DNA from: Chryseobacterium sp. SORGH_AS_0447
GTDB lineage: Bacteria; Bacteroidota; Bacteroidia; Flavobacteriales; Weeksellaceae
Direction: 5' to 3'
Length of the DNA: 64,000 bases
Assembly: GCF_030818695.1 (NCBI RefSeq)
Contig: NZ_JAUTAR010000001.1
Location: forward strand, 3,962,501-4,026,500
Shown: positions 5,565 to 64,000 of the stretch, piece after piece
Layout of the letters: every line of letters begins with the position of its first letter
Numbering within the stretch: the first letter of the stretch is position 1
The notes under the pieces: generated by a model
The model's database searches: none
Seen by the model: only the letters and a program-made list of their open reading frames with translations
Told to the model about the DNA's origin: nothing
Translations under genes and position numbers: made by a program

Positions 5565-7694
5565 ATGAAAAAATTCTTACTTACCCTTACAGTAGCTGCA
5601 GCATTTCAAAGCTTATCTGCTCAGGAAATCACTTTAGATAAAATATATTCAGGATATTACCGTGGAAAAGGTATTGCCGGAATTACATCTATGAAAAACG
5701 GTGAAAACTATCTGGTGATCGAACAGGGCGGCATCGCCAAATATTCCTACAAAACCTCCCAGAAAGAGGGAAATATTGTAGACGGACGTTTTGAAAGCTA
5801 TGAGTTTTCGGATGACGAATCCAAAATCCTTCTGCTGAAAGAAAGCCAGCCGATTTACAGGCATTCTTTTTTAGGCACATTCGAGGTAAAAGACCTGAAA
5901 TCAGGAAAAGTAACCAGCCTAAATAACGGGAATACCGTACAGGAACCGAGATTCTCTCCTGATGCTAGCAAAGTTGCTTTTATTGCAGACAATAACCTGT
6001 TCTACCAGGATCTGAATAGCGGTAAAATCACCCAGATCACCACCGATGGAAAGAAGAATGCTATCCTGAACGGTCTGGCAGACTGGGTATATGAAGAAGA
6101 GTTCGGACATGCAAGACAGTATGAATGGACGAAGAATTCCGATGCCATTGTTTTTGTAAAATCTGATGAAAGCCAGGTTCCGGAAATTTATATCCCGATT
6201 TACGGGAAAACGCTGTATCCTACGGAAATGCGTTACAAATATCCTAAGGCAGGAGAAAAAAATTCTGTTGTTTCGGCACAGTTATACCGTTTGGACAACG
6301 GGAAAACGATTCCGCTGAATCTGGGATCATTTAAAAATTACTACATCCCCAATGTATTCCAGACCGCCAAAGCGGATGAAATCGTCCTGATTACTTCCGA
6401 GAGAATCCAGAATGCTTCCGATGTATTAAAAGTGAATACCAAAACCGGAGCGGTTCAGAAATTATTTACAGAGACCGATGAGAAGTGGATCGATACCGAC
6501 AGCCCAACCCTTGAATTCCTGGAGGACGATTCTTTCCTTTGGGCATCCGAAAGAGACGGGAATCGACATTTATATTGGTATGACAAGGATGGAAAACTGA
6601 AAAAACAGGTAACGAAAGGCAATTGGGAAGTAACTGATTATTACGGCTACAATCCGAAATCCAAAGAGATTTACGTTCAGACGACCGAAAAAGGAAGCAT
6701 CAACAAAGTGATTTCCAAAGTAAATATCGAAAACGGTAAATCCCAGCTGATCTCTAACGCGGAAGGAAATAATTCCGCCAATTTCAGCAAAAACTACAAT
6801 TACTTCATTGAAACGTCTTCCACTGCTGCAAAACCGTATACTTTTGTCTTAAAGGACGGAAACGGAAAAACCGTAAAAGAGCTTCAGAACAATGAGGCAC
6901 AGCTTCAGAAACTGAAGGCCGACAACTTTGTGGATAAAGAGTTCATCACCATTCCAAACGGAGCCGGAGACCAGATGAATGCCTGGATTATTAAGCCTAA
7001 AAACTTTGATAAAAATAAAAAATATCCGCTCTTTATGTTCCAGTATTCAGGCCCGGGTTCCCAGCAGGTTTCCAATTCCTGGGATAACGGAAACGGGATC
7101 TGGTTTGAAATGCTGGCGCAAAAAGGTTATGTGGTTGCTTGTGTAGACGGCCGTGGAACCGGGTATAAGGGAGCGAAATTCAAGAAAGTTACCTATATGG
7201 ATCTTGGTAAATATGAGATTGAAGACCAGATTACCGCTGCCAAATGGTTCGGGAACCAATCGTACATCGATAAAACCAGAATCGGAATGTTTGGATGGAG
7301 CTTCGGAGGATATATGACCAGCCTTGCCATGACCAAAGGTGCTGATGTCTTCAAAATGGGAATCGCGGTTGCACCGGTTACGAACTGGAGATATTACGAT
7401 TCCGTTTATACGGAAAGATTCATGAGAACGCCTCAGGAGAACCCGGACGGCTACGATAAAAACTCCCCGACCGAATACGCGAATTTACTGAAAGGGAAAT
7501 TCCTGCTGATCCACGGTACGGCTGATGACAACGTGCATTTCCAGAATTCCATGGAGTTTTCGGAAGCCTTGATCCAGAACAAAAAACAGTTCGACTTCAT
7601 GGCCTATCCGGATAAAAACCACGGCATTTACGGCGGCCAGACCAGACCTCAACTGTATCAGAAAATGACTGATTTTATTCTGGAGAATCTGTAG
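5565..7694 (+). CDS. Dipeptidyl-peptidase IV, S9B family, exported
   Basis: 709 aa from ATG 5565: signal peptide MKKFLLTLTVAAAFQSLSAQ, then the DPP IV beta-propeller and a C-terminal alpha/beta hydrolase. DWVYEEEFGHARQYEW carries the paired glutamates that anchor the substrate amino terminus. The catalytic triad is visible: Ser579 in GWSFGGY, Asp in GTADDNVHF, His in DKNHGIYGG. It releases X-Pro/X-Ala dipeptides in the periplasm. That fits the neighbouring peptide transporters at 8.4-14.5 kb, which could import the products. The ORF is open upstream to 5454, but a promoter box and the signal peptide favour this start. Confidence 0.93.
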   Translation: MKKFLLTLTVAAAFQSLSAQEITLDKIYSGYYRGKGIAGITSMKNGENYLVIEQGGIAKYSYKTSQKEGNIVDGRFESYEFSDDESKILLLKESQPIYRHSFLGTFEVKDLKSGKVTSLNNGNTVQEPRFSPDASKVAFIADNNLFYQDLNSGKITQITTDGKKNAILNGLADWVYEEEFGHARQYEWTKNSDAIVFVKSDESQVPEIYIPIYGKTLYPTEMRYKYPKAGEKNSVVSAQLYRLDNGKTIPLNLGSFKNYYIPNVFQTAKADEIVLITSERIQNASDVLKVNTKTGAVQKLFTETDEKWIDTDSPTLEFLEDDSFLWASERDGNRHLYWYDKDGKLKKQVTKGNWEVTDYYGYNPKSKEIYVQTTEKGSINKVISKVNIENGKSQLISNAEGNNSANFSKNYNYFIETSSTAAKPYTFVLKDGNGKTVKELQNNEAQLQKLKADNFVDKEFITIPNGAGDQMNAWIIKPKNFDKNKKYPLFMFQYSGPGSQQVSNSWDNGNGIWFEMLAQKGYVVACVDGRGTGYKGAKFKKVTYMDLGKYEIEDQITAAKWFGNQSYIDKTRIGMFGWSFGGYMTSLAMTKGADVFKMGIAVAPVTNWRYYDSVYTERFMRTPQENPDGYDKNSPTEYANLLKGKFLLIHGTADDNVHFQNSMEFSEALIQNKKQFDFMAYPDKNHGIYGGQTRPQLYQKMTDFILENL

Positions 7695-52069: not shown

Positions 52070-52101
52070 AAAATCCGGTGCATTTATTTTCACCGGATTT
52101 T
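52070..52101. terminator. Bidirectional terminator between HTH pair and RNA array
   Basis: AAAATCCGGTG (52070-52080) and its complement (52091-52101) around a 10-nt loop, A/T tracts at both ends. It can stop the HTH mRNA and the leftward RNA array. Confidence 0.8.
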
Positions 52102-52207
52102 TGTATAAAGGGAATGGGCGGGAAAAGAAAAACAGCGGGGCATCGTTGTGCCGGAATCGAACCGGATAGCCTTGCAGAAGTGATCTGCTGCGCTATTCTT
52201 CCCCTTC

Positions 52208-52243
52208 AAATGGTAACGAAGCATCTTTTCCCTACGACACTTT
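52208..52243 (-). ncRNA. Array unit 12 (minimal, degenerate closing stem)
   Basis: GTGTCG, 13 nt, CTTCG directly followed by TTACC (T-A pair). No insert. It is followed by a hairpin (ATAGC/GCTAT and GCAGA/TCTGC) and a T-arm-like CCGG-TTCGATT-CCGG at 52148-52165. Confidence 0.55.
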
Positions 52244-52256
52244 ATGTTTAAAAAAA

Positions 52257-52406
52257 CAAGGCAACATCCGAAAAGCGTATGTGCGTGCTCTAACCAACTG
52301 AGCTACTTTTCCTATTGAAATTTTGTGTTTTTGATTGTGGAAAAGGCGGGACTCGAACCCGCGACCCCGTCGTGATGAGCGAAGTAACACTATTCTACGG
52401 CACTTG
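52257..52406 (-). ncRNA. Array unit 11: permuted tRNA-like RNA
   Basis: Closing stem CAAG-t-GC with GC-CTTG. Insert: T-arm GCGGG-TTCGAGT-CCCGC, acceptor CTTTTCC with GGAAAAG (7 bp perfect) joined by a 25-nt loop, D-arm GCTC-AGTTGGTTA-GAGC. The clearest tRNA mimic. Confidence 0.8.
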
Positions 52407-52417
52407 TTTATTTGATG

Positions 52418-52642
52418 CAGATAAGGTAAAAAGCGGAAAAGGGATGCTCTTTTCAGAGCGTCGCTCTTACCCGTTTCCGGGCAGGGAGCGGGCAATTCTA
52501 CATCTGCGGGAGACTTACGCTTTCTTACGAAAACTTTTGCCCGGTTGGTTTTCAACCCAACTTCACCAGTTCGGTCGCCCGAATTACGCTACCTTAGGAC
52601 CGTTATATTTACGAAGTACCCTTTTTCTACGACACTTATCTG
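52418..52642 (-). ncRNA. Array unit 10: 23S rRNA-fragment mimic
   Basis: Closing stem CAGATAAG-t-GT with AC-CTTATCTG (10 bp). Insert begins AAAT then ATAACGGTCCTAAGGTAGCG (52587-52606), identical to the universal 23S rRNA H69-H71 sequence, and continues with several GC-rich hairpins. Longest unit, 225 nt. Confidence 0.8.
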
Positions 52643-52656
52643 TAATTTTTAATTAA

Positions 52657-52765
52657 AAAGAGGCAACAGACGGGAAAACCTTTATATAAACCGTTCAGGT
52701 TTATTCTGGAGTCGAACCAACATCATAAGATTAACCGAAGTAGGTTTTCTCTGACGGCACTCTTT
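52657..52765 (-). ncRNA. Array unit 9: tRNA-like RNA without clear D-arm
   Basis: Closing stem AAAGAG-t-GC with GC-CTCTTT. T-arm-like TTGG-TTCGACT-CCAG, then ATAAACC with GGTTTAT (7 bp) closed by TGAAC. Confidence 0.7.
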
Positions 52766-52770
52766 GGTTT

Positions 52771-52903
52771 ATATCAGGGTAACTTTTCGTACAGACACTT
52801 ACGGCTTACGTCCTACTCTTTAGACGACTGTTTTTCACAGGCAGGATCGGAACCTGCATCTTAAGCCTGGAACGAAGTATTTCTGTACTACGACACCCGA
52901 TAT
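52771..52903 (-). ncRNA. Array unit 8: permuted tRNA-like RNA
   Basis: Closing stem ATATCGGG-t-GT with AC-CCTGATAT. T-arm GCAGG-TTCCGAT-CCTGC, acceptor CTGT/ACAG closed by GAAAA, D-arm CGTC-TAAAGAGTAG-GACG. Confidence 0.75.
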
Positions 52904-52919
52904 GAATTTATATTGTAAT

Positions 52920-53044
52920 AAGAGGCAAAAAGCGAAAAAGCAGACATGCACCTGATCCCTACTTTTATTCGGGAAATTGCACCTGTTCATAGATTTCTGA
53001 GGTCTATATTTTATCCGAAGTAAGCCTTTTCTACGGCACTCTTT
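52920..53044 (-). ncRNA. Array unit 7: divergent insert
   Basis: Closing stem AAGAG-t-GC with GC-CTCTT. Insert has the hairpin ATAGA/TCTAT, then TCCC/GGGA around GAATAAAAGTA, with CAGGTGCA repeated on both sides; only distantly tRNA-like. Confidence 0.6.
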
Positions 53045-53051
53045 TGTTTTT

Positions 53052-53194
53052 AAATCAAGGTAATAATGATAGAATCTTCCGTTCATCTGCTCTACCGGCT
53101 GAGCTACATCCCGCTTACAACAGGGATGGCAGGAATCGAACCTGCGACCCAATGGTTAAATATCGAAGTATGATTCTAAAACGACACTTAATTT
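53052..53194 (-). ncRNA. Array unit 6: permuted tRNA-like RNA
   Basis: Closing stem AAATTAAG-t-GT with AC-CTTGATTT (one G-U). T-arm GCAGG-TTCGATT-CCTGC, acceptor CATCCC/GGGATG closed by a 10-nt loop, D-arm GCTC-AGCCGGTA-GAGC. Confidence 0.8.
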
Positions 53195-53221
53195 TTATAC
53201 TTTTTGTATATTTTTCTAAAA

Positions 53222-53342
53222 TTACAAGGCAAAGAGTAATAAAAGCTGTCTTAAAAACGTCTAGCCACTCGACCACACCTTCCGGCGAAAGGATTTGAAC
53301 CTTTGTAAAAATCGAAGTAACTTTTATTTACGGCACTTGTAA
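53222..53342 (-). ncRNA. Array unit 5: permuted tRNA-like RNA
   Basis: Closing stem TTACAAG-t-GC with GC-CTTGTAA (9 bp). T-arm AAAGG-TTCAAAT-CCTTT, acceptor CGCC/GGTG closed by a GGAA tetraloop, D-arm GTC-GAGTGGCTA-GAC (Ser/Leu-like). Confidence 0.8.
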
Positions 53343-53351
53343 GTAATGGTA

Positions 53352-53422
53352 AACCGAGCAAAATTCAGGAAGAGGCTTTTTTCAATTTGGATTCGAAGGA
53401 ACTCTTTCGTACGGCATCGGTT
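53352..53422 (-). ncRNA. Array unit 4: short unit
   Basis: Closing stem AACCGA-t-GC with GC-TCGGTT; CG-N13-CTTCG present. Insert of about 30 nt, no tRNA features. Confidence 0.6.
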
Positions 53423-53465
53423 GTTTTAAGTTTTTATGGTTATTGTTTTAAAGTTGTTGCTTTAG

Positions 53466-53483
53466 TGCGCATTTTTTACGCCG
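53466..53483 (-). promoter_or_regulatory. Degenerate second copy of the array promoter element
   Basis: CGGCGTAAAAAATGCGCA, 2 bp shorter than the others. Followed on the minus strand by AACCATAAAAACTTAAAA as at the main promoter (AACCATGAAAACTTAAAA), but no -7 box at the right distance. Looks like an internal duplication of the array start. Confidence 0.55.
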
Positions 53484-53498
53484 TTGAATGTATTTAAA

Positions 53499-53585
53499 AA
53501 ACCAAGTAACAGGTTATAAAAGTTTTTGAATTCAGTTCAAATTAAAAGTTTGACGATGGAACTCTTATGATAACGACATTGGTTT
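53499..53585 (-). ncRNA. Array unit 3: short unit
   Basis: Closing stem AAACCAA-t-GT with AC-TTGGTTT (9 bp); the conserved CTTCG reads CATCG. No tRNA features. Confidence 0.55.
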
Positions 53586-53588
53586 ATT

Positions 53589-53664
53589 CAAACAGGGCGA
53601 TGCAGCGAAAAGACTCTTATTCAAGTGGAAATCGAAGGAATTTTTTTCTTACGGCACCGGTTAG
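53589..53664 (-). ncRNA. Array unit 2: short unit
   Basis: Closing stem AACCGG-t-GC with GC-CCTGTT (one mismatch). Insert begins like unit 4 (TTCCACTTGAA versus ATCCAAATTGAA). Confidence 0.5.
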
Positions 53665-53671
53665 TTTTTTT

Positions 53672-53797
53672 AAGCAAGGTAAAAAGCAGACAGAGACTTA
53701 TCGGCAGAGCGATACCCTTACGCCATTCCTTAAAGGAAACAGGATTCGAACCTGTATTGCTGCCCCCTGAAGTAACTCTGTTTTACGACACTTGCTT
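53672..53797 (-). ncRNA. Array unit 1: permuted tRNA-like RNA
   Basis: Closing stem AAGCAAG-t-GT with AC-CTTGCTT. T-arm ACAGG-TTCGAAT-CCTGT, acceptor TTCCTT/AAGGAA with a minimal loop, D-arm GCG-TAAGGGTAT-CGC. Confidence 0.75.
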
Positions 53798-53832
53798 TTT
53801 TAAGTTTTCATGGTTGTTGTTATTTGTTGAAG

Positions 53833-53869
53833 CAAAATTATACGGTTAGTGCGCATTGTTTTTACGCAG
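53833..53869 (-). promoter_or_regulatory. Promoter of the RNA array with shared 20-bp element
   Basis: On the minus strand: CTGCGTAAAAACAATGCGCA (53850-53869), 9 bp, TAATTTTG (53833-53840). Same element and same 9-bp spacing occur upstream of the TROVE gene and the second RNA. Confidence 0.8.
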
Positions 53870-53890
53870 TTGAAATTATTTTTATTTTTT

Positions 53891-54547
53891 TTATTTCAAT
53901 CCGGAAATTATTTCTGAAATACCTTCTGCATCTTTAATGTTCATCCTGGTTAAAATATTCAAAATTTTATTCTTAAAGTGTATAGGATGACTTCTTACTC
54001 TTTCAAATCCATATTTTAATTCAGTTTCACTAATCCTCAAAACAGGTTTTATATCTATGGAATTGTCCAAACTTACTTCAGTATAATCTGAAAACAGGAT
54101 TTCCTCATTTTCTTTTTTATAGAAAATCCAAGGATGTCCAATTTCCAGAATTTTCCATTCGTCTGAAGGATTTTTAAAAATTTTTTCCCATTCTGAAATA
54201 TCCCTTAAATCTCCACAACATGTGGGTTTGATTAAGATTTTTTCATCCTTCATTAGAACAATACCTCCATTAAAAGGCACCATTATATTTTCAGGGCCTT
54301 CCATATCTGCTTGTTCTAAAAGCTCGATTAAAATAATTTGTAAATTTTCATCATCAATAGTTTCTGTGTCAATAAAACAAGAGCCTTTTTCGACGCTATC
54401 CAAATCCAAATTAAGCAATGTCTGAGACTTTATCCATGCCTGAAACCAATCTTCAGGACTTTGATGATCAGAAATTTCCGATATATCGAAGTCTTCTTTC
54501 GGATATTTTAAAGGAGAAACTTCGATGACATTAATAAACCGAATCAT
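53891..54547 (-). CDS. Hypothetical protein, AT-rich
   Basis: 218 aa, acidic, no signal peptide. IFVPFNGGIVL-like strand (NIMVPFNGGIVLMKDEKILIKPTCCGDLRDISEWEKIF) recalls immunity-protein folds where CCGDL precedes a Trp, but I do not recognise the family. Codon use is clearly richer in A/T than in neighbouring genes, which hints at transfer. It sits between the TROVE gene and the RNA array, on the same strand. Confidence 0.65.
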   Translation of the reverse strand: MIRFINVIEVSPLKYPKEDFDISEISDHQSPEDWFQAWIKSQTLLNLDLDSVEKGSCFIDTETIDDENLQIILIELLEQADMEGPENIMVPFNGGIVLMKDEKILIKPTCCGDLRDISEWEKIFKNPSDEWKILEIGHPWIFYKKENEEILFSDYTEVSLDNSIDIKPVLRISETELKYGFERVRSHPIHFKNKILNILTRMNIKDAEGISEIISGLK

Positions 54548-54575
54548 GGTTGCAAAATTTTTATTATTATAAATG

Positions 54576-54611
54576 GTGCCTGTTACAGCACCACTTTTTA
54601 ATTATTTCCAC
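54576..54611. repeat. Direct repeat, copy 1 (end of TROVE gene duplicated)
   Basis: About 36 bp matching 55193-55229 apart from one missing T and one substitution. Extends with weaker similarity to about 54626. In the TROVE frame it reads like VEIIKK-VVL, the TROVE C-terminus. Confidence 0.75.
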
Positions 54612-54820
54612 CGGGTATTCCGGTATTTTTTCCAGTTTCTCTGAAACTTATACTGCTTTGCATTCACTGTTTCAATGCCGTGCGGAAAGCACCAGGAACA
54701 CCCCATTTCTATTCCATATATAATCCGGGAAATTCGGACATTTGAGATTTTCTGTGGAAAATGAATTAATCCGTATTCATTAACTCCAAAAGCTTTTTTT
54801 AATGATTTACATTTTTTCAT
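54602..54820 (-). CDS. Small Cys/Trp-containing hypothetical protein
   Basis: 72 aa, strongly basic: LKKAFGVNEYGLIHFPQKISNVRISRII, GCSWCFPHGIETVNAK, RNWKKYRNTRWK. The CSWCFPHG block with two Cys and one His could bind metal. I have a weak memory of similar small proteins in this phylum but no name. Its last codons lie in the duplicated TROVE 3' end. A 9-bp-arm inverted repeat precedes the ATG. Confidence 0.6.
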   Translation of the reverse strand: MKKCKSLKKAFGVNEYGLIHFPQKISNVRISRIIYGIEMGCSWCFPHGIETVNAKQYKFQRNWKKYRNTRWK

Positions 54821-54822
54821 AA

Positions 54823-54845
54823 GTATTGAGTATTTAACTCAATAC
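54823..54845. repeat. Inverted repeat upstream of the 72-aa gene
   Basis: GTATTGAGT and ACTCAATAC around ATTTA, directly 5' of ATG 54820. Possible operator or 5' UTR hairpin. Confidence 0.6.
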
Positions 54846-54849
54846 AATG

Positions 54850-55190
54850 CTCCTTTAAGAAATGGTTTATAATAATTCATGATTCCTTATTATTTGTAAT
54901 TATAAAAATATTTTAAGTTCAGATCAATTTATCTAGTCATTTTACGTTGAAACAAAGAACCCAAAAGTTCAAGGCTTGAAAACTCCGGCTAAAAATTCTA
55001 AACTTGCGTAAATCTAATACTTGGTTTTCGTTTTTTACCATTGGGTCTTTCCTAGCCCCGATTGCAACGGCATCCTTTTTCTGCAAGGGCTTTAAAAAAA
55101 AGCGCCGGCGAAAAAGATACAGTGGAAAGCGGGATCAGGCTCCTGAAAAAATCTATGGTAGGCATACATCATTCATCACCCATTTAAAAG
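54850..55190. other. Gene-free stretch containing a family A repeat
   Basis: No convincing frame on either strand. Holds the dispersed element at 55053-55140. Confidence 0.55.
55053..55140. repeat. Dispersed noncoding element, family A, copy 2
   Basis: TAGCCCCGATTGCAACGGCA, TCCTTTTT, a short stem, AAAAAGATACAGTGGAAAGC then GGGATCAGG. The most complete copy. Confidence 0.65.
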
Positions 55191-55192
55191 CA

Positions 55193-55229
55193 GTGCCTGT
55201 TACAGCACCACTTTTTTAATCATTTCCAC
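55193..55229. repeat. Direct repeat, copy 2 (TROVE gene 3' end)
   Basis: Partner of 54576-54611, 617 bp apart. On the minus strand GTGGTGC-tgtaaca-GGCACTGC followed by TTTT also forms a terminator-like hairpin across the TROVE stop codon. Confidence 0.75.
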
Positions 55230-56717
55230 GGCTGATTTCCGGTCTTCCAGGGCATTCAGGACATCGAAAATTTTATCGGACCAACCTGCGATCAGGTAAA
55301 CGTCATTTTTTCTGACATCCAACGGCTGTTTTCCGTAGCCCGCCAGGTCAAAAATATAGAGTTTTGTCTCCGGATTGAATCTTTTATACTGATTCCAGGA
55401 ATCTTCAAAAGAATTCCGCGTTACGTTGCTGTTCCACAGCTGGGTATCGGTGAAGAGCATTACTTTATTTACTTTTTCTCTTCTGTTCAGCAGATCTTCG
55501 ATCACGAGGTAACCGTTGGTAGAGTATCCTACTTCACCTTCCCTTTTGTAGAAGGCATCCACATTTCTCAGAATTCCGTTTTTAGGCATCGGAACCCGTT
55601 TCCAGGTGTCACCGAACATTCCGGAGATGACGTTTTTGCACTGTGACTGCAGCATCATCGACATCAGCAGGCCAATATCGTACAACAGTACTTTGGATTT
55701 CGGAGAAACCGGCTGCTGCATCGATCCCGATACGTCGGCCGCAATAACCAAGGAAGTATCAAAACCAAAACCTTTGATGTTTTTGGCACTTACCGTCACC
55801 GCATCTTCTAATGCTGCAAGAACAGACGAAAGATAAGGTGAATCGATGGTTTTCAGTTCCCTGTACGCCGCCAGGAACCTGAACGGCAGCTGCTTTGAAT
55901 TTCGTACCGCTTTTTCATCTGACAGATACCTGCATACTTTCTCCATCGCCTGAGAAGAAACATTTGCTTCCAGAATATTTCTCAGGTTCCTCAGGGTCGC
56001 CATATATCCCAGCTTGTTGCTGAAAACCAGTTCTTCCCATTTGTTTTTAAAAGCTGCTTTTCTTTCAGCCTCATCGGCAAATTTGGTTTGTCCCAAGACG
56101 GAAAGTTCTACTTCCCATGTATAAGGGGTTTCCAGCGAGTCGTTTACGATTTTATTGAAAATAGCCTGCTGGCTTTCATCTTTTGCTTTCGGGTGAACGA
56201 GAAACAGCGCATCTTTCAGGGTAACCTCCGCTTTCCTGTTGTATTTGGCAAACTGGTATTCGTCAAATTTATTGAAAGATTTTACCAAACCTTTCTGAAT
56301 TTGCTTTGAAAGTTTATTCAGCTTTTTCAGATCCGTTCTTTCATTGGCCATCTGGTAATACGCCAGCAATTCGGTGATTTCATCCGCTCTCTGGATGACG
56401 CCGTCAACGGTTCTGCTTACGAGGTCGGTACCTGAAGCTTTCTTAGCCAATTCGGTCGTCAATACCAAAGGAATGGAACGCAAGTACATATTTTTTCTGG
56501 CATAAACCGCCAGTTTGGCTACGAATTCCGGATCGTTCTTCCGGATCAGGGATTGTATTCTGGCCAGCCTTTCATTTCCTTTTTCATAGGTGGTATTTGA
56601 TAATCCTGTTGTTACAACAGCACTGTACAGCTCTTCTGCCGGCGTCATGGTATAGGCTTTGGCACCTTCGTAGTTCGTTACTACATTATCCGATTTTCTT
56701 AAAAAATTAAATTTCAT
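55200..56717 (-). CDS. TROVE-domain protein, Ro60/Rsr orthologue
   Basis: 505 aa from ATG 56717 (an ATG at 56741 is also in frame). The N-terminal TROVE HEAT-repeat ring (about residues 15-310) starts NYEGAKAYTMTPAEELYSAVVTTGL. Typical parts are LAVYARKNMYLRSIPLVLTTELAK and LGYMATLRNLRNILEANVSS. The C-terminal von Willebrand A domain has an intact MIDAS: D328-V-S330-G-S332, T400, D424 (LFTDTQLW). Ro proteins form a ring that binds misfolded RNA ends and Y RNAs and can guide exonucleases such as PNPase. Its promoter carries the same 20-bp element as the two tRNA-like RNA loci, so those RNAs are the likely Y-RNA partners. Confidence 0.93.
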   Translation of the reverse strand: MKFNFLRKSDNVVTNYEGAKAYTMTPAEELYSAVVTTGLSNTTYEKGNERLARIQSLIRKNDPEFVAKLAVYARKNMYLRSIPLVLTTELAKKASGTDLVSRTVDGVIQRADEITELLAYYQMANERTDLKKLNKLSKQIQKGLVKSFNKFDEYQFAKYNRKAEVTLKDALFLVHPKAKDESQQAIFNKIVNDSLETPYTWEVELSVLGQTKFADEAERKAAFKNKWEELVFSNKLGYMATLRNLRNILEANVSSQAMEKVCRYLSDEKAVRNSKQLPFRFLAAYRELKTIDSPYLSSVLAALEDAVTVSAKNIKGFGFDTSLVIAADVSGSMQQPVSPKSKVLLYDIGLLMSMMLQSQCKNVISGMFGDTWKRVPMPKNGILRNVDAFYKREGEVGYSTNGYLVIEDLLNRREKVNKVMLFTDTQLWNSNVTRNSFEDSWNQYKRFNPETKLYIFDLAGYGKQPLDVRKNDVYLIAGWSDKIFDVLNALEDRKSAVEMIKKVVL

Positions 56718-56777
56718 GGTTACTGTTTTTTTGTTAAACATATCAGAGGATTATCAGTTCCTCCCTGATTTCTGATG

Positions 56778-56814
56778 CAAAGTAAGCGTGCATTTACGCA
56801 ATCTTTTTGCGCAG
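56778..56814 (-). promoter_or_regulatory. Promoter of the TROVE gene with shared 20-bp element
   Basis: Minus strand: CTGCGCAAAAAGATTGCGTA (56795-56814), 9 bp, TTACTTTG (56778-56785). The leader to ATG 56717 would be about 55 nt. Confidence 0.8.
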
Positions 56815-57631: not shown

Positions 57632-58729
57632 TTATTTTGTGAAGATCTCTTTCAGCTGAGAAACAATGTTGCTGTTTCCGGAAACGGTAATATCTCCAAT
57701 TTTGTCGGCGATTTTTTCCATATATTCCATTTCCTTCAGTTTCCAGAGTACTTCGTTCTCTTCCATCAGCTTTGCCGTATTCAGCAGGCTTCTGGTAGAC
57801 GCGGTTTCTTCCCGTCTCATAATGCTGTTGGCCTGGGCCTTTTTCTCTGCAATCAAAACCTGGTTCATGATGTCCTTCATTTCCCCTGTTAAGATTACAT
57901 CTCTTATTCCCGCATCAGAAGCTTTCAAGCCCAATTCATCGGCCTTGCTGCCCAAATTTCCAAGAATTTCTTTTCCTACGGAATCTTTTTTCAACAGCAG
58001 TTCGTCCAATGTTAGAGCCCCGACGAATTCACGTAAAGCCAACTGCATCAGAATATATAATTGCTTATCATATTCTTTGTTCTCCATCAGTGCTTTCTGA
58101 ATATTTGCCACCTGAAAACGTACATAAAAATTGATCCTGAGCATAGCTTTATCTTTGGTCAATAGTTCCTGACCGGCGATTTCCATCTGCTGCATCCTGG
58201 TATCAATCGATTTTACTTCTATGGAAGTTTCGTTGTTCCAGAAGTAATACGTTCCTGCCTCCAGAATTCTGTTTAACTTTCCGTCAATCAGCAAAAGACC
58301 TTTGTATTGATTGGTGATTACGAATTTTCTTATAAAATTTTTCAGTTTCATATTTTCCAGAATCGTTCTGGGAATCTTTTCTGTAATTTCCACTTTCGTT
58401 AAGTCTGCTTTCTGAAATTCCCTGTTTAAAATTCCTTTCCAGAAAGCATATTGCCCGACCTGCAGAACTTCTTTAAAAATTCCGTTTTCGTATACCAATA
58501 CTATTTCCCCATCTTTTACCTCCACGACTTCGAGCATGGATTTCAGGTTTTCGTTTTTCAATAAGAGATTAAGATCGGCACCTGACTTGAACAAAGCTTT
58601 CATATCATACACCTCCACCGATTTATTTCCGAAAATCCAGAAACTGCCTTCTTTAAGAATATCGGTTAAGTTTCCGTTCCTGAAAACCAACCCCCGCTCA
58701 TATGCTTTAATCTGTACATTTTTTATCAT
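57632..58729 (-). CDS. Slipin (SPFH/Band 7 protein)
   Basis: 365 aa from ATG 58729. Starts MIKNVQIKAYERGLVFRNGNL, with two repeated beta modules (about 10-90 and 130-200), then the SPFH core (SIDTRMQQMEIAGQELLTKDKAMLRINFYVRFQV) and REFVGALTLDELLLKKDSVGKEI. The coiled-coil tail is MNQVLIAEKKAQANSIMRREETASTRSLLNTAKLMEENEVLWKLKEME. Lacks the N-terminal membrane hairpin of typical slipins. Slipins occur in RtcR-type RNA-repair operons next to Ro proteins, which fits the location. Longer frame to 58861 disfavoured because it adds low-quality sequence. Confidence 0.85.
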   Translation of the reverse strand: MIKNVQIKAYERGLVFRNGNLTDILKEGSFWIFGNKSVEVYDMKALFKSGADLNLLLKNENLKSMLEVVEVKDGEIVLVYENGIFKEVLQVGQYAFWKGILNREFQKADLTKVEITEKIPRTILENMKLKNFIRKFVITNQYKGLLLIDGKLNRILEAGTYYFWNNETSIEVKSIDTRMQQMEIAGQELLTKDKAMLRINFYVRFQVANIQKALMENKEYDKQLYILMQLALREFVGALTLDELLLKKDSVGKEILGNLGSKADELGLKASDAGIRDVILTGEMKDIMNQVLIAEKKAQANSIMRREETASTRSLLNTAKLMEENEVLWKLKEMEYMEKIADKIGDITVSGNSNIVSQLKEIFTK

Positions 58730-58904
58730 GACTATATTTTTAATGGTTATCATTTTAATTAAAAAGTAAATCCGGAATCTCTTCTTCCAAAAACGGCGGA
58801 AGAAAAGCCATTCTGAAAAATTCATAAATCTCAGCATCTTATTTTCGAAATCATTTCTCAATGTTCAGATTTTGGCCGTGTCCCTTGCCCTGGCTTAACC
58901 AACA

Positions 58905-58985
58905 ACCCGGGTCGCTACGTTCACTGCTATCTTTTTTGCAGGCAAAAAAGGATATCCGTTATCATCGCTCACGGAGAAAACCGTC
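58905..58985. repeat. Dispersed noncoding element, family A, copy 3 (inverted)
   Basis: Read on the minus strand: GATAACGGATATCCTTTTTT, GCCTGCAAAAAAGATAGCAG, TGAACGTAGCGACCCGGG. Same block order as 55053-55140. Confidence 0.55.
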
Positions 58986-59088
58986 CTTTTTAGAAAACTC
59001 ATTCAAGAATGATTGATCTTCGTATCTATTTCATTTTCAGAAAAATATCTTTTCTCACAGGCTTTTTCAAAATGTTGATTTGACAACT

Positions 59089-59109
59089 GAAAAAATCCCG
59101 GATTTTTTC
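59089..59109. terminator. Bidirectional hairpin
   Basis: GAAAAAATCC and its complement around one base, 21 bp in all; A/T-rich arms act as T tract in both directions. Second stop behind the RNA at 59140. Confidence 0.6.
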
Positions 59110-59139
59110 CGAATATTTTTAATGAGAATATTCAAACTC

Positions 59140-59168
59140 GAAAAAAAAATAGATTTTGAGTCTATTTT
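59140..59168 (-). terminator. Terminator of the second RNA
   Basis: Minus strand AATAGA-ctcaaaa-TCTATT followed by eight or nine T. Confidence 0.85.
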
Positions 59169-59495
59169 CAACTACAGTTATTGTGTAGTACTCTAACCAA
59201 CTGAGCTACCTCATCCGAAACGAGGGTGGGAGTCGAACCCACGCATAAAAATCTATTGTTCTACCATTTGAACTACATCCCCATTCAGGAGATAGAAGGA
59301 CTCGAACCTTCAACCCATAGAGCCGTAAGATTTTTCTGGCTAAATCTCTGAAACCTTCAGGTCAAGCTGAACAGAACGAAATCATGTTCCTCAACAAATT
59401 CTTCTGCAATGGTGTTATCCAGAAACACTCAACAAGACCTGCCTGATATTTTGACTAAAATCCGTTTTTCAAAATTTTAGTGTTGTTTTGTTTTG
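59140..59495 (-). ncRNA. Second Ro-associated RNA: two tandem permuted tRNA-like modules
   Basis: Minus-strand transcript about 355 nt from the shared-element promoter at 59502-59538 to a terminator at 59140-59168. Its 3' half holds module 1: T-arm GAAGG-TTCGAGT-CCTTC, acceptor TATCTCC/GGGGATG (7 bp) closed by TGAAT, D-arm GTTC-AAATGGTA-GAAC. Module 2 follows: T-arm GTGGG-TTCGACT-CCCAC, acceptor CCTCGT/ATGAGG closed by TTCGG, D-arm GCTC-AGTTGGTTA-GAGT, then hairpin CTACA-CAATAAC-TGTAG. The 5' half has hairpins CTAAAAT/ATTTTAG, GTGTT/AACAC with a 7-nt loop, and a long-range CAGGTC/GACCTG pair. Not a normal tRNA gene: the T-arm precedes the D-arm. Confidence 0.8.
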
Positions 59496-59501
59496 ATGAT
59501 G

Positions 59502-59538
59502 CAAAGTAAGACAACCTGTGCGTAATGTTTTTGCGTAG
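59502..59538 (-). promoter_or_regulatory. Promoter of the second RNA with shared 20-bp element
   Basis: Minus strand CTACGCAAAAACATTACGCA (59519-59538), 9 bp, TTACTTTG (59502-59509), then CATCA as at the TROVE promoter. Confidence 0.8.
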
Positions 59539-59565
59539 TAAAAATTTTTATTTTTCCCGCCGGAT

Positions 59566-59680
59566 GTTACCGTATTTCACCCTTTCAGGGCTTGGATTAA
59601 CTGTGCTTTTTGATGACATCGGGCTATACCCGATGCTGGTGTATGTCGCCCTTTCAGGGCTGACGATTATTCCTTTTATT
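59566..59680. repeat. REP-like palindromic repeat units
   Basis: CACCCTTTCAGGGCTTGGAT and CGCCCTTTCAGGGCTGACGA (two units, inner palindrome CCCTTTCAGGG-like) with CATCGGGCTATACCCGATGCTGGTGTATGT-type sequence between. Common Bacteroidota REP-type layout; no transposase here. Confidence 0.65.
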
Positions 59681-59839
59681 TAGACATCTCTTACGATCAG
59701 CTTTGCTTTTATTGAAAATCGTAAAAAAAACTCCCTTTAAAAAGAGAGTTCAATTATATCGATATATACATAAATTGCTCCATTGACAAAGTCACATTGT
59801 TATATCGTTACATTATTAGATTGCTACATTATTCCCAGT

Positions 59840-60388
59840 TTACCTTTTCAGGCACCAATGCAGAATTTTGGCAATATTCCTGGCGTCATCTATACCACGG
59901 TGGTGGGTACCCTCCAGCGTAAGGTTCAGTTCGCCCAGCGCACGGGCCATGCCGACACTTTTACGGACGGTCGGATGCAATTCCCCAAATAAGGTTTTCA
60001 CATTGATGTGGTCGTCGTTCAACGGATAATCCACCCTGAACCTTTTGGCCTGGTTCTGAAGCATTTTCAGGTCGTAGTTTCCATAGCTGGCCCACGTCAG
60101 CTCTTCGGAATCGTATTCCGCTCTTAGGATATCCAGGGCATCTTCCAGTAAAATGCCTTCGTCATCAAGCATCTGCTGGGTAATGGAAGTCAGTTCCGTA
60201 CAGAACGGGCTTACTTTTGAAAATTGAGGCTTTACCAAAATGCCTTCGCTACGTAAAACCTTACCGGTTGCGGCGTCCATAAGGCATACCCCGATTTCGA
60301 TGATTTCACTTTCCTGACCTCTCGGCGGCCGGTCGTTCCAGCACGTTGCTTCAAGGTCTATAATTAATATGTTGTCTGTTGTTTTCAT
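59840..60388 (-). CDS. DEDDh 3'-5' exonuclease, ERI-1/KapD-like (copy 1)
   Basis: 182 aa. ILIIDLEATCW (ExoI D-x-E), EIIEIGVCLMDAATG, WASYGNYDLKML (ExoII D), THHRGIDDARNIAKIL (ExoIII H-x4-D). The order and the LEATCW string are those of ERI-1-like exonucleases that trim RNA 3' ends. Cytoplasmic. Paralogue at 60802. By location and family a candidate RNA-trimming partner of the TROVE/tRNA-like RNA locus, but DNA substrates cannot be excluded. Confidence 0.9.
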   Translation of the reverse strand: MKTTDNILIIDLEATCWNDRPPRGQESEIIEIGVCLMDAATGKVLRSEGILVKPQFSKVSPFCTELTSITQQMLDDEGILLEDALDILRAEYDSEELTWASYGNYDLKMLQNQAKRFRVDYPLNDDHINVKTLFGELHPTVRKSVGMARALGELNLTLEGTHHRGIDDARNIAKILHWCLKR

Positions 60389-60801
60389 TTGTTTAAAATT
60401 TGATTGTTTAGCTGGAAGATGGATGATGGAAGCGGGATGTTCGTGTGTTTTAAAACTTCCCGTTTTTCATATCCTAGTTCCTCCAGATTGATTGGCTGGA
60501 AGATGGGTGATGGAAGCTGGATGTTTGAGTATGCTACACAACTTCCAGGTTACCATATCCAGATTCAGCTAGATTATTTGTTGAAACTGGAAGCCAAGCT
60601 GATGGATGAATGATTACTTTGAAAATCCGGTTTTTTTTAAACCAAATACCATACTGAATATCACATGAAAGGATGAGTGGGATAAATTAAATACCGTAAA
60701 AACTTCCAATATCCAACGTCTTACTTTCCTTTGCTGCTGAAGACTGGACCTCATTCCACACTGCTATAACTTCCAGCATCCATCACCCATCTTCCCACCT
60801 T
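60389..60801. other. Gene-free stretch between the exonuclease genes
   Basis: Only the tandem repeat and its inverted relative; a 69-codon frame at 60404 is made of the repeat and is not considered a gene. Confidence 0.6.
60407..60575. repeat. Tandem 84-bp repeat (two copies)
   Basis: GCTGGAAGATGGATGATGGA at 60411 recurs as GCTGGAAGATGGGTGATGGA at 60495, with AACTTCC..., CATATCC and CCAGATT blocks kept. Inverted relatives (CTTCCAGCATCCATCACCCA) at 60771 and at 48931. Confidence 0.7.
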
Positions 60802-61347
60802 TTATCTCAGCATTTCCCTTAAAATCCGGGCGGCATTATAGGCATCGTCGGCTCCGCTGTGGTGGTTGCCTTCGAAGTCCATGTTCAGGGCCTTCAGGGC
60901 TCTTTTCAGGCCCATTATTTTATAAAGGCCGTTGTAGGCTTTGAACTGATGCATGATGTTGATGTAATTTCCGGAAAAGGGGTTTTCGATGCCGAGGTAA
61001 TCACACTGTTCCACGATCTGCTCTTTGTCAAAAGCTCCGAATCCGGCCCAGGCGATCGATGCAGGATGGTATTCTTCCCTGATCTTTTCACAGGCTTCCT
61101 CGAAATAGATTCCTCTTTCTTCGATCAGCTTCGGGGTAATCCCTGTAAGATCCGTGCAGAACCTGTTGATTTTGGATCTTTCCGGAATGACATAAATGCT
61201 CTGCTTTTTGGAAATTTCGCGGGTGGTCCTGTTCAGTTCGCAAATTCCTATTTCTATAATATCGGTTTTCTGGCCGGGTGGGATTTTATCGTATTCCCAA
61301 CACGTCGCTTCCAGATCGATAACGATTATTTCGTTGGTTGTTTTCAT
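60802..61347 (-). CDS. DEDDh 3'-5' exonuclease, ERI-1/KapD-like (copy 2)
   Basis: 181 aa from ATG 61347: IIVIDLEATCWEYDKIPPGQKTDIIEIGICEL (ExoI), WAGFGAFDKEQIV (ExoII), NHHSGADDAYNAARIL (ExoIII). Clear paralogue of the upstream-lying copy with the same length and MKTT start; the pair likely arose by duplication with the repeat-filled spacer between. The frame is open to 61401, but the extra residues (HPSPRIHPPALHTT) are repeat-derived. Expected activity: 3'-5' trimming of RNA or DNA. Confidence 0.9.
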   Translation of the reverse strand: MKTTNEIIVIDLEATCWEYDKIPPGQKTDIIEIGICELNRTTREISKKQSIYVIPERSKINRFCTDLTGITPKLIEERGIYFEEACEKIREEYHPASIAWAGFGAFDKEQIVEQCDYLGIENPFSGNYINIMHQFKAYNGLYKIMGLKRALKALNMDFEGNHHSGADDAYNAARILREMLR

Positions 61348-61497
61348 TGTTGTATGTAAGGCCGGAGGATGGATGCGGGGTGAGGGATGTTTTTCTCTCA
61401 CACCCGTTTTCCGACCTTTTTATAAATTGTTGTTTACTATTTTATGAATAATGCCGAAAGTTTTGCAGTATGCTGTAAGACCGGCATCAGTTCCATT

Positions 61498-62061
61498 TTA
61501 ATTTCTAGCGGCAAACGGCGGAGTCCACTTTTTCCGGGCCATCACTGCTTTCACTTCTTCGTAGGAAACGGGATAGAAGTTATGGCAATCGACGCCCACA
61601 TCAAAACTTAACGCCGCTTCATCATCCGGCAGTGTTCCTTGCGAATGACCGTAGAGCTGCCAAGTGCCACGATGGGAACCGTTCCAGGTCCGCATGGCGT
61701 AATGGAAAAGAATGATTTTCTGTTTGCCATTGCTGTTTTCAGGTTCATCGATCCTCAGCTCGTGATAATCCCGAATGGAATCAAATCTCTTCGGATAGGT
61801 TAAGGCCGCTCCTTCATGGTTGCCCTTAATCAGGTGGATATTTCCATTCAGACGGTCCAGAACTGCTCTGGTAAAATCAGGCTTGCCTAAGCTGATGTCT
61901 CCCAGGTGATAAACCGTATCTCCGGGACTTATTTTTTCATTCCATCTTCTGATAAGTTCTTCGTTCATCTGTTCCAGAGACTCAAAAGGTCTTTCGGAGA
62001 ATCTGATGATATTTTCATGACCGAAATGATGGTCTGCTGTAAAAAATATATTGGGTTTCAT
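61498..62061 (-). CDS. Calcineurin-like metallophosphoesterase
   Basis: 187 aa. IFFTADHHFGHENIIRF (D-x-H), TVYHLGDISLG (GD), HLIKGNHEG (GNHE), ILFHYAMRTWNG (H) and QLYGHSQGTLP (GH-x-H degenerate to GHSQG). Belongs to small cytosolic phosphoesterases of unknown substrate; phosphodiesterase or nucleotide phosphatase activity is expected. Lies in a same-strand run with the exonucleases, nucleoside hydrolase-like and MBL genes. Confidence 0.88.
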   Translation of the reverse strand: MKPNIFFTADHHFGHENIIRFSERPFESLEQMNEELIRRWNEKISPGDTVYHLGDISLGKPDFTRAVLDRLNGNIHLIKGNHEGAALTYPKRFDSIRDYHELRIDEPENSNGKQKIILFHYAMRTWNGSHRGTWQLYGHSQGTLPDDEAALSFDVGVDCHNFYPVSYEEVKAVMARKKWTPPFAARN

Positions 62062-62163
62062 TTTTTTTAATTGTTTTTTCTTATAAGTTTAATACTATTA
62101 TTAGTCTCATTAGAATAAATTTTAAGAGTTTATTGCTCTAAAAACTTATACATTTTTAGGAGT

Positions 62164-63033
62164 CTAAGGTTTAATTAACATCCAAAGATCTTTCAGATCA
62201 GGAATGAATGTTGTTATCAGTGAAGAACTTTTTCCAAGATTTTCTTCCGCTTTCCATGATCCCCATTCGCCACGGGTTCTGTAAGGAATAACCTCTGCCC
62301 AGATCGCTTTGGAAGGATCAATAGCCAGTAAAGCGGCTACCGTATCATGAAGTGCTTTCTCTTTCATTTCTACTGCTTTCAAAAAAAGATCCAGCCCTTT
62401 ATTATAGTTTCTGAACGGGATCAACATTTCCGCATCAATTTTAGTAAAAACCGCCGCATGGCAGACATTTTTACTGATCAAACGTCTTTCGGCTATCGGG
62501 ATTGAAAACAGTTTTTCAGCAGCCAGAGGATTTCCGTTCAGATTAAAAGTTGCGCAGGTTGTTTTCCCGTCAAATTTTTCCAGCCGGTGTTCTTTCGGAA
62601 CGACATTGTCCCCTGCAAAACCTCCTTGGCAAAACCAGCGGTCGAAGAAGATCCCGGTTTCAGATAAAGCATACGGGTTTGTAAGTGCTGCCCCTGTCAA
62701 CAGCGTACTATCTGGAAACTGACGAAGAGTGTCGGTCATAATATCGACCGCAGAACCATCTGCTTCCGAATCTTTAAAACCTCCGACCCAATCCCGATGA
62801 AATCCTGAAACACGCTGGGCATCAGACTTAGGAGAACCGGCTCCGATACGAATATCTTCACGGTCCAGAATAGTAAGGATCTTTCTTACGAAACCGATCT
62901 GATCCGTCCCTCCCGGATGTACGGAAACACTTGCAAGATGGACCCTGGGATGCGTTGCTAAAATTGCAAGCGTCATGGCATCATCGGGATCCGCTGTTTC
63001 CATATCAAAATGAAAAGGTATTTTAAGTTGCAT
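62164..63033 (-). CDS. Nucleoside hydrolase-like protein
   Basis: 289 aa. The N-terminal metal motif HFDMETADPDDAMTLAILATHP is the DxDxxxDD calcium site of inosine-uridine nucleoside hydrolases in altered form. Other blocks: VSVHPGG, IRIGAGSP, STLLTGAALTNPYAL (NLAL-type block), NVCHAAVFTKID, LHDTVAALLAIDP (family His/Asp near the end). Would cleave N-glycosidic bonds of nucleosides or a related ribosyl substrate. Follows the MBL-fold gene by 44 bp on the same strand. Confidence 0.85.
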   Translation of the reverse strand: MQLKIPFHFDMETADPDDAMTLAILATHPRVHLASVSVHPGGTDQIGFVRKILTILDREDIRIGAGSPKSDAQRVSGFHRDWVGGFKDSEADGSAVDIMTDTLRQFPDSTLLTGAALTNPYALSETGIFFDRWFCQGGFAGDNVVPKEHRLEKFDGKTTCATFNLNGNPLAAEKLFSIPIAERRLISKNVCHAAVFTKIDAEMLIPFRNYNKGLDLFLKAVEMKEKALHDTVAALLAIDPSKAIWAEVIPYRTRGEWGSWKAEENLGKSSSLITTFIPDLKDLWMLIKP

Positions 63034-63077
63034 AATTCAATTTTTAGTTATTAGTTTCTGCTTTAAAATTGTTCTAA

Positions 63078-64000
63078 TTAATCTTTGAACGCCTTGTAAA
63101 AAGCAGTTTCAATTTCAAGCCTGTCGTTTTCCGTATACCTTCTTGAAAAATGGACAGGAATGGCTTCTTTTACTTTACAAGCTTTCATAATCGATCCGGA
63201 AGCAGAAGCGAAACTGTGATGGTTCAATCTTGCAAATTCCTGATCTTCATCTTTATAAAAGGTTTCGATGTACACCAGATCCGCGCCGCTGAAAACCGTC
63301 TTTATTTTTTCATAGTTGCCTTCCTCTGCCGCATGATCCATGATCACACCGAGTTTATAACCCTCATTCCGGGTCAGCAGATGGAATAATTCCGAAGCTT
63401 TGTAAACCGTTCCTTCTATTTCAATCGCTTTATTGGTTTCATTCTTTTCAAAAGCATTCTTCAGTTCGCTGATCCATTTTCCTTTTTTGAATTCAGAAAC
63501 GTTTTCATTAAAACTCACTGAATCTTTTCCCTTAAATAGGTAAGCAATGGAATCCGTTTTATGATCCAGAATAGCGAAATCGACTGTTACATATTCATCT
63601 TCAAAAAGAAAATCCTGTGTTTTTACCTCTTCAAGATTCCAATGCGGCGGACGGATTTTATACACGTTAATTTCTTCGGGTGAAACGATTTCGCGGATTT
63701 CATATTCGATGGCGTTTTCGTCGATCAGGTTCCAAGTGTAGGATTTTAACCTTGCTTCAATTTGTTGATGAATATTTTCCGGTCCGCAGATCACCACTTT
63801 TTCCCCGCTTCCGATCTGGTGTCTGAAAATGCCGTCAAAGTTTGAAAAATGGTCAATGTGGGTATGACTGATAAATACCGCCGATACCGATTGCACTTCT
63901 TTTACCGTCAACAAACTCGCTTCACCACAATCGCACAGATAATGCTTTGCTGAATTCGGGACTTTTATTAATATGCTGATGTCTTCTTTAAAAAGACTTT
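63078..64000 (-). CDS. Metallo-beta-lactamase-fold protein, RNase Z-like (5' end beyond window)
   Basis: The frame stays open to 64000, so the N-terminus is outside. Visible part: DISILIKVPNSAKHYLCDCGEASLL, then the zinc motif FISHTHIDHFSNFDGIFRHQIG, VVICGPENIHQQIEAR, GVIMDHAAEEGN and ADLVYIETFYKD..ARLNHHSFASASGSIMKACKVKEAIPVHFSRRY. The LCDCGE/HTHIDH layout and the C-terminal HHSFA...HFSRRY match the RNase Z (ElaC) group of MBL proteins, which process tRNA 3' ends. It lacks parts of the canonical exosite in what I can see, so a divergent family member. Confidence 0.75.
   Translation of the reverse strand, partial: SLFKEDISILIKVPNSAKHYLCDCGEASLLTVKEVQSVSAVFISHTHIDHFSNFDGIFRHQIGSGEKVVICGPENIHQQIEARLKSYTWNLIDENAIEYEIREIVSPEEINVYKIRPPHWNLEEVKTQDFLFEDEYVTVDFAILDHKTDSIAYLFKGKDSVSFNENVSEFKKGKWISELKNAFEKNETNKAIEIEGTVYKASELFHLLTRNEGYKLGVIMDHAAEEGNYEKIKTVFSGADLVYIETFYKDEDQEFARLNHHSFASASGSIMKACKVKEAIPVHFSRRYTENDRLEIETAFYKAFKD

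Follow-up and report, generated by a model that had tools for sequence, protein, structure and literature searches.

We confirm that a twelve-unit array of Y-RNA-like sequences lies behind a genuine TROVE/Ro60 gene in Chryseobacterium sp. SORGH_AS_0447. The window, by which we mean the whole stretch of 64,000 nucleotides (nt) that was analysed (contig NZ_JAUTAR010000001.1, positions 3,962,501 to 4,026,500, forward strand), was the subject of an earlier note, made from the letters alone, that predicted such a TROVE-linked array on the minus strand; core searches and a Pfam TROVE match bear this prediction out. The units share one closing stem and carry different heads, including mimics of transfer RNA (tRNA) and of 23S ribosomal RNA (rRNA). 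We give an even chance to the reading that the array is an adaptor and gate set for Ro60, in which units built on the common stem would use interchangeable heads to recruit RNA-acting enzymes or to gate the ring.

A loose search for the core GTGYCG-N-CTTCG, allowing up to two mismatches, found twelve cores on the minus strand downstream of the TROVE gene (units U1 to U12, Table 1). Each predicted unit opens with a strand like NNNCAAG, followed by a bulged U, G-Y, CGUA, a variable stem of about 7 base pairs (bp) and ACUUCG; after the insert come the stem partner, about 5 nt, UU, R-C and CUUGNNN, and the ends of the unit are paired. The common architecture is a 7-bp closing stem, the bulged U, the G-Y/R-C pairs, an internal loop, a second stem and ACUUCG. 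As in bacterial Y RNAs, the units are encoded beside a Ro60 gene, and a conserved stem joins their 5' and 3' ends. A tRNA gene array was ruled out, since ARAGORN called no tRNA gene in the whole window.

Under a strict rule (a core with at most one mismatch and a downstream TTRC, then a closing stem of at least 4 bp), 10 of the 11 qualifying cores in the array passed, compared with none on the plus strand of the array and one in the remaining window; 1000 shuffles of the array gave a mean of 0.01 and a maximum of 2. U3 was missed for its two core mismatches and has a good closing stem, U12 failed through UUCC in place of UURC, and U2 passed solely by pairing with a 3' end that belongs to U3. 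The same architecture was then counted in 61 loci, namely the window and 60 regions fetched from 102 genomes with an orthologous TROVE. Among their 456 cores, the closing stem reached at least 5 bp in 352 and at least 4 bp in 371, and none of 32 cores on the opposite strand had at least 4 closing pairs. The Y-R pair, which was left free during selection, was T-A in 173, C-G in 164, T-G in 17 and unpaired in 17 of the 371 units, so that 337 carry T-A or C-G. The earlier note had also likened the plus strand to the stem of animal Y RNAs. This reading fails on the strand counts just given: it is the minus strand that forms the stem and carries the tRNA and 23S modules in the sense direction.

Clustering of the 371 strict units (ten of them from the window, with U12 left out) gave ten main classes, one pair and four singletons. 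The ten main classes recur across the 61 loci in largely constant order, and their mean pairwise identity within a class is 0.68-0.87 across species. By the strict rule, class 0 is the most widespread (109 units, 58/61 loci, with U6 and U11 as both window copies), followed by class 2 (47/61) and class 1 (44/61). Chen 2014 is said to have found that bacterial Y RNA loci hold at least one RNA with a tRNA-like (permuted) domain, and class 0 provides such an RNA in those 58 loci. Units with the shared stem occur in Chryseobacterium, Epilithonimonas, Flavobacterium and Pedobacter.

The shared architecture that the note had described (stem, bulged T, GYCG, CTTCG and TTRC) not only recurs but also covaries. 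In 26 diverse class-0 units, 97.2% of cells were paired and double changes occurred at 18 of 30 pairs. The covariation score of the class-0 stem was reached by none of 500 shuffles, and the structure outscored every slid control. Four of five covariation measures lay above all 500 shuffles; the fifth, which counts further pair types, did not clearly do so (40/500 reach it). Where neighbouring units are less than 60 nt apart (n=200), the median gap is 8 nt, which makes a common precursor likely.

Seven of the twelve units contain a T arm (U1, U5, U6, U8 with a deviant loop, U9, U11 and U12). The note's count of at least six permuted tRNA modules holds only in part: a permuted T arm plus D arm is supported in U6, U11 and U8 only. 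The T arms closely match host tRNA arms, with identities of 17/18 in U1, 20/21 in U5 (tRNA-Arg(tct)), 21/22 in U6 (tRNA-Pro) and 21/22 in U11 (tRNA-Gly). D-arm identity to the host is 19/20 in U6 (tRNA-Lys), 21/21 in U11 (tRNA-Met) and 18/22 in U8 (tRNA-Glu), the last being a match that none of 100 shuffles reached; the D-arm matches of U5 and U1 to host tRNAs were not significant, and U5 is Ser/Leu-like by eye only. U12 aligned best to the anticodon-arm-plus-T-arm half of tRNA-Arg(acg), partly via its T arm (0/100 shuffles). On the Rfam YrlA model, U6 scored 41.1 bits and U11 37.8 bits.

The rRNA fragment proposed for one insert is present in U10, where 31 of 33 nt are identical to positions 1795-1827 of the host 23S rRNA, a segment that we take to be H69-H71 in E. 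coli numbering. The class-8 stretch is identical at 33/33 positions in two relatives (L037 and L051), and a class-8-like unit occurs in the distant locus L284, which is labelled as a Limnohabitans metagenome-assembled genome and has a TROVE 68% identical to that of the window. When the whole array was searched against the genome, it returned itself, one leader-region repeat (5.3e-7), the four 23S genes (1.9e-6) and then tRNA genes. By eye, U10 also seemed to resemble H35 and domain IV of 23S, but this further mimicry was rejected, as the alignment scores fell within those of shuffles, and a 16S, 23S or 5S origin of other classes was rejected on marginal hits only (E 0.003-0.044).

The co-occurrence of arrays with TROVE, a check that the note had put forward, was surveyed in raw genome counts. 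In the genus survey of 148 genomes, 102 carry an orthologous TROVE (match with E below 1e-40), one of them (G038) as only a piece at a contig, and strong class-0 RNA matches (E at most 1.7e-16) were present in 102/102. Among the 46 genomes without an orthologous TROVE, 40 had no TROVE match (20 by elimination) and 6 only distant or broken ones; class-0 RNA was found in one of the 46, on a 5.6-kb contig of an assembly that is 73% complete and in 600 contigs (G123). An intermediate class-0 match (9.1e-10) came from G133, which has a distant TROVE only. In the order survey of 296 genomes, with a class-0 cut-off of E at most 1e-9, the 25 genomes with TROVE, spread over 3 of 90 genera, were exactly those with class-0 RNA, and the other 271 had neither; weak RNA-model matches in genomes lacking TROVE (best E 7.5e-7) were taken to be neighbouring tRNA genes. 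Arrays thus track TROVE (25/25 in the order, 102/102 versus 1/46 in the genus), the opposite of the equal frequency without TROVE that the note had named as counting against it.

The link also holds in a second, overlapping set of 80 loci from named records, 79 of which show two or more strict units downstream of TROVE; in the sole exception, L241, the sequence stops about 200 nt past TROVE. In the phylum survey, TROVE was found in 28 of 394 genomes, and 19 loci outside the order were fetched. All 13 of these with a TROVE at least 51% identical had 1-7 strict units downstream, mostly with several T arms; at L338 they lie 1.5 kb from TROVE, among tRNA genes. Two loci with a distant TROVE (L342 and L344) show several downstream T-arm motifs that ARAGORN did not call as tRNA. 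The many T-arm motifs at three viral loci (L160, L163 and L165) were rejected as units and lie mostly inside ordinary tRNA genes. One genome, G045, carries an apparent single deletion from inside TROVE into the last unit, joining the first part of TROVE to that unit, so that gene and array are both lost. In G144, two stray units were observed about 20 kb from the main array (L213, about 6350-6770).

The TROVE open reading frame (ORF) of the window matches Pfam TROVE at 4.6e-29, and Chryseobacterium TROVE proteins are up to 94% identical to it. The vWA_Ro60 model scored 21.6 bits, under its cut-off of 27.7. Residues D335, S337, S339 and D431 are invariant in the TROVE alignments, and T407 is invariant in one and nearly so in the other; we take these five to be MIDAS-type residues, and the protein has a TROVE ring and a vWA domain that carries them. 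In Foldseek searches with the AF2 model (pLDDT 81, pTM 0.73), all 13 PDB matches below 1e-3 were Ro60/TROVE. The top entries were 9kop (a TROVE domain) and 9l5y (the Ro60 of a Thermus phage, phiLo), followed by 1yvp (Ro autoantigen with RNA); 2i91 and 2nvo were also among the matches. The NCBIfam Rsr equivalog NF041674 gave 27.6 bits (E 9.5e-7) and did not reach its cut-off of 900 bits. The protein is a Ro60 relative outside the narrow Rsr equivalog model. A defence-system label was rejected: TROVE had no match in a PADLOC scan, and two DEDD proteins matched only a generic CRISPR-associated DEDDh model.

A sister Ro60 system in the same genus presents a related RNA with the inverse topology. 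Its TROVE is 26-30% identical to the window type over aligned parts, and an unpermuted tRNA of about 130 nt is present in seven of the eight loci examined (L206, L207, L208, L209, L210, L211 and L215) and absent from L203. This RNA keeps the tRNA order of acceptor, D arm, T arm and acceptor, but between the D and T arms the anticodon arm has given way to a stem that carries UUACUUCG and a related bulge region; the Rfam tRNA model matched it in three of four loci scanned (L206, L209 and L210). It is followed by a minimal hairpin with GGUUACUUCG or a near variant, and both lie upstream of the distant TROVE. No covariation rise was seen among the seven close sequences (term +2.7), which are too alike for support. 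We read the sister RNA as a probable circular permutation of a class-0 unit, and this reading supports the common stem, not the head, as the Ro60 ligand.

How might such an array work? According to PMC8394870 and PMC4726728, YrlA holds Rsr through its basal stem and offers its head to DusA and TruB as a substrate, and a Y RNA of D. radiodurans tethers PNPase; the assembly of Ro60, Y RNA and PNPase is termed RYPER. Given this precedent, each unit may be a Ro60 adaptor with a partner-selecting head. The twelve predicted units would be transcribed as one or a few precursors and then processed, and would probably bind Ro60 through the common closing stem. The tRNA- and rRNA-like heads would dock proteins that normally bind the mimicked RNA, such as tRNA-modifying enzymes, PNPase or H69-H71 binders, and one ring could thereby gain several specificities in RNA decay or repair under stress. 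Natural variation on this one stem supplies about eight head classes, many of which imply a partner, and short headless units in addition. We put forward only tentatively the bolder proposal that about a dozen heritable RNA adaptors, which mimic several types of tRNA elbow and 23S H69-H71, form a library that reprograms a single Ro60 ring, the array units being circular permutations of the sister unpermuted Ro-tRNA. If true, this would be RNA-guided surveillance in which the guide acts by structural mimicry instead of base pairing.

Several results weigh against an adaptor set. Class-0 units score 31-42 bits on YrlA (RF02553), below the gathering threshold of 69 bits, and we therefore regard them as YrlA-like relatives and not as members of that family. 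The U10 insert outside the 33 nt is not significantly 23S-like, class 8 occurs in 13/61 loci by the strict rule, and matches of U7 (class 6) and the short classes 3 and 5 to known RNAs were marginal only. The co-occurrence counts ignore kinship. Moreover, no strict units were found at the six phylum loci with a TROVE 22-31% identical, and among viral-labelled TROVE loci they occur in 1 of 11 (L159), with four others 43-54% identical and yet without them. Since most viral loci and those of 22-31% identity are unit-less, the scaffold belongs to one Ro60 lineage.

The main rival, which we consider unlikely, is that the units are decoys, tRNA-elbow and 23S H69-H71 look-alikes stabilised by Ro60 that absorb toxins, RNases or phage factors. 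The mimics are of translation RNAs and have diversified, U10 is nearly identical to host 23S, RNA-repair-type genes (the RNA ligase Rnl2, an RNase Z-like protein and two DEDD exonucleases) lie upstream on the same strand, and a competitive-inhibitor idea for YrlA is raised in PMC7790460. However, the anticodon arm, which is the target of anticodon nucleases, is missing from most modules, and the same paper describes YrlA fragments as undetected with the Salmonella anticodon nuclease active; a decoy for anticodon nucleases is weakened on both grounds. The note's idea of sensors for RNases that cut tRNA is not supported, on the same two grounds, with U12 as a possible exception to the first. The lack of a PADLOC hit for TROVE also speaks against decoys, and co-inheritance with Ro60 would need an extra reason.

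It is quite unlikely that all the work falls to one or two tRNA-like units, with the others as redundant Ro60 ligands whose heads drift. Class 0 is the only near-universal class and several classes come and go, as this predicts, but classes keep their sequence, structure and order across species, and class 8 recurs in the distant L284. Similarly improbable is that the heads chiefly serve tRNA and rRNA modification enzymes as substrates or as sinks, with Ro60 particles reporting on or titrating modification. T arms and D arms carry TruB, TrmA and Dus sites and H69 carries RluD sites, which counts for this explanation, as does the status of YrlA as a DusA and TruB substrate (PMC8394870); by sequence it is indistinguishable from the adaptor model, but it leaves the short module-less units unexplained. 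A non-functional array, whether chance or a selfish tRNA-derived repeat, fits the tandem arrangement and tRNA-derived sequence, has next to no probability and is already contradicted by covariation, strand specificity and co-occurrence with TROVE.

An operator-like motif connects these elements. Its general form is TRCGYA-N7-TRCGYA, and in the window it lies 9 nt before TNAYTTTGC; TTACTTTGC, which follows the copy upstream of TROVE, is presumably a flavobacterial -7-like element. In a search that allowed at most one mismatch, with shuffled sequence as control, 61/61 loci had a copy ahead of TROVE, at a distance of about 70-85 nt from the match start (about 170 nt in L063), and all of them had the motif again between TROVE and the last unit (155 hits versus 8 in shuffled sequence). 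In the 64-kb window the motif has only three locations: upstream of TROVE, upstream of the array and upstream of a free tRNA-mimic RNA (about 59.1-59.5 kb). Being palindromic, it gives 6 hits there over the two strands, versus 2.2 in shuffled windows. The motif also stands upstream of the sister RNA in all seven loci that carry it.

Table 1. Coordinates of features of the TROVE locus in the window.
Feature	Positions	Strand	Basis
Hairpin between A/T runs, likely bidirectional terminator of the array	52072..52099	.	sequence
U12 (class 2, assigned by position and likeness)	52110..52246	-	
U11 (class 0): permuted tRNA elbow	52247..52409	-	
U10 (class 8): 23S rRNA segment	52410..52641	-	
U9 (class 1): T arm and stem	52642..52766	-	
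U8 (class 7): T arm (deviant loop) and tRNA-Glu-like D arm	52767..52902	-	
U7 (class 6): structured insert, no clear relative	52903..53045	-	
U6 (class 0): permuted tRNA elbow (T arm, acceptor, D arm)	53046..53193	-	
U5 (class 9): T arm and D-like arm	53194..53342	-	
U4 (class 3): short, without tRNA module	53343..53423	-	
U3 (class 5, second half): good closing stem, two core mismatches	53424..53585	-	
U2 (class 5, first half): short unit	53586..53663	-	
U1 (class 4): T arm and hairpin	53664..53797	-	
Second operator copy, upstream of U1	53850..53868	-	
218-amino-acid ORF between TROVE and array	53891..54547	-	no Pfam or NCBIfam match
TROVE/Ro60 (Rsr-like) protein, 513 amino acids	55200..56741	-	Pfam, alignments, AF2, Foldseek
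Palindromic operator TGCGCA-N7-TGCGTA, 9 nt before TTACTTTGC, upstream of TROVE	56795..56813	-	

The free-standing RNA (window 59141-59537, minus strand) is about 370 nt long and consists of two tandem permuted tRNA modules; it has the operator upstream and a terminator-like hairpin, and adjoins an SPFH/Band-7 gene. Matches of 326-412 nt and 77-96% identity occur in 12/80 loci, and the SPFH gene also in 12/80. The genes upstream of TROVE on the same strand (window 57632-64000, and L123 5579-8385) resemble RNA processing or repair functions: SPFH, two RNase_T/DEDD exonucleases, a phosphoesterase, a nucleoside hydrolase, an RNase Z-like protein (214 bits, cut-off 315) and an Rnl2 RNA ligase (TIGR02307, above cut-off), with a second ligase-like ORF by eye. 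DEDD genes lie within the fetched TROVE flanks of 25/80 loci. The ORF between TROVE and the array is likely optional cargo, as relatives occur in 24/80 loci. On the opposite strand in the same interval lies a Flavo-1 RNA (RF01705, 61.5 bits, window 55050-55140, plus strand), also seen in four of seven related loci scanned. In L124, a tight cluster of odd tRNA-like genes (1957-2497, minus strand), one of which ARAGORN names SeC, adjoins an ORF that resembles Sir2 by eye; L124 also has the same operator, at 3905-3923.

To our knowledge, known bacterial Ro60 loci carry one or a few Y RNAs, and Chen 2014 reportedly described multiple Y RNAs per Ro60 locus as well as tRNA mimicry. Y RNAs beside Ro60 in bacteria are thus known; no account of the mimic repertoire, the rRNA mimic or the sister unpermuted Ro-tRNA came up in the literature searched, which left out Chen 2014, Sim and Wolin 2018, and Boccitto and Wolin 2019. 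The array and its inverse-topology sister system bear on what the heads of bacterial Y RNAs do.

Vertebrates also have several Y RNAs per Ro60, and these share with our units a 7-bp lower helix, one bulged pyrimidine and an opposite-strand bulge, as described in PMC4726728; the array differs in its bulged U, where theirs is C, and in its tRNA- and rRNA-mimic heads, and sequence homology was neither sought nor seen. In the Salmonella rsr-yrlBA-rtcBA operon, according to PMC7790460, Ro60 and Y RNAs likewise lie near RNA repair enzymes, under RtcR control, whereas the palindromic motif is found here. Among the 15 ORFs scanned here, none received the name RtcB, RtcA or RtcR; what the window has instead are a ligase of the Rnl2 family, an RNase Z-like protein and DEDD exonucleases. 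Closest is YrlA with Rsr, which is also encoded beside a Ro60 gene, pairs its 5' and 3' ends in a stem and has a permuted tRNA-elbow head (T arm, acceptor, D arm). Unlike YrlA, the array scores below the YrlA cut-off, comprises twelve units, adds an outer stem with a bulged U and ACUUCG, and bears heads that differ between units and include a 23S segment.

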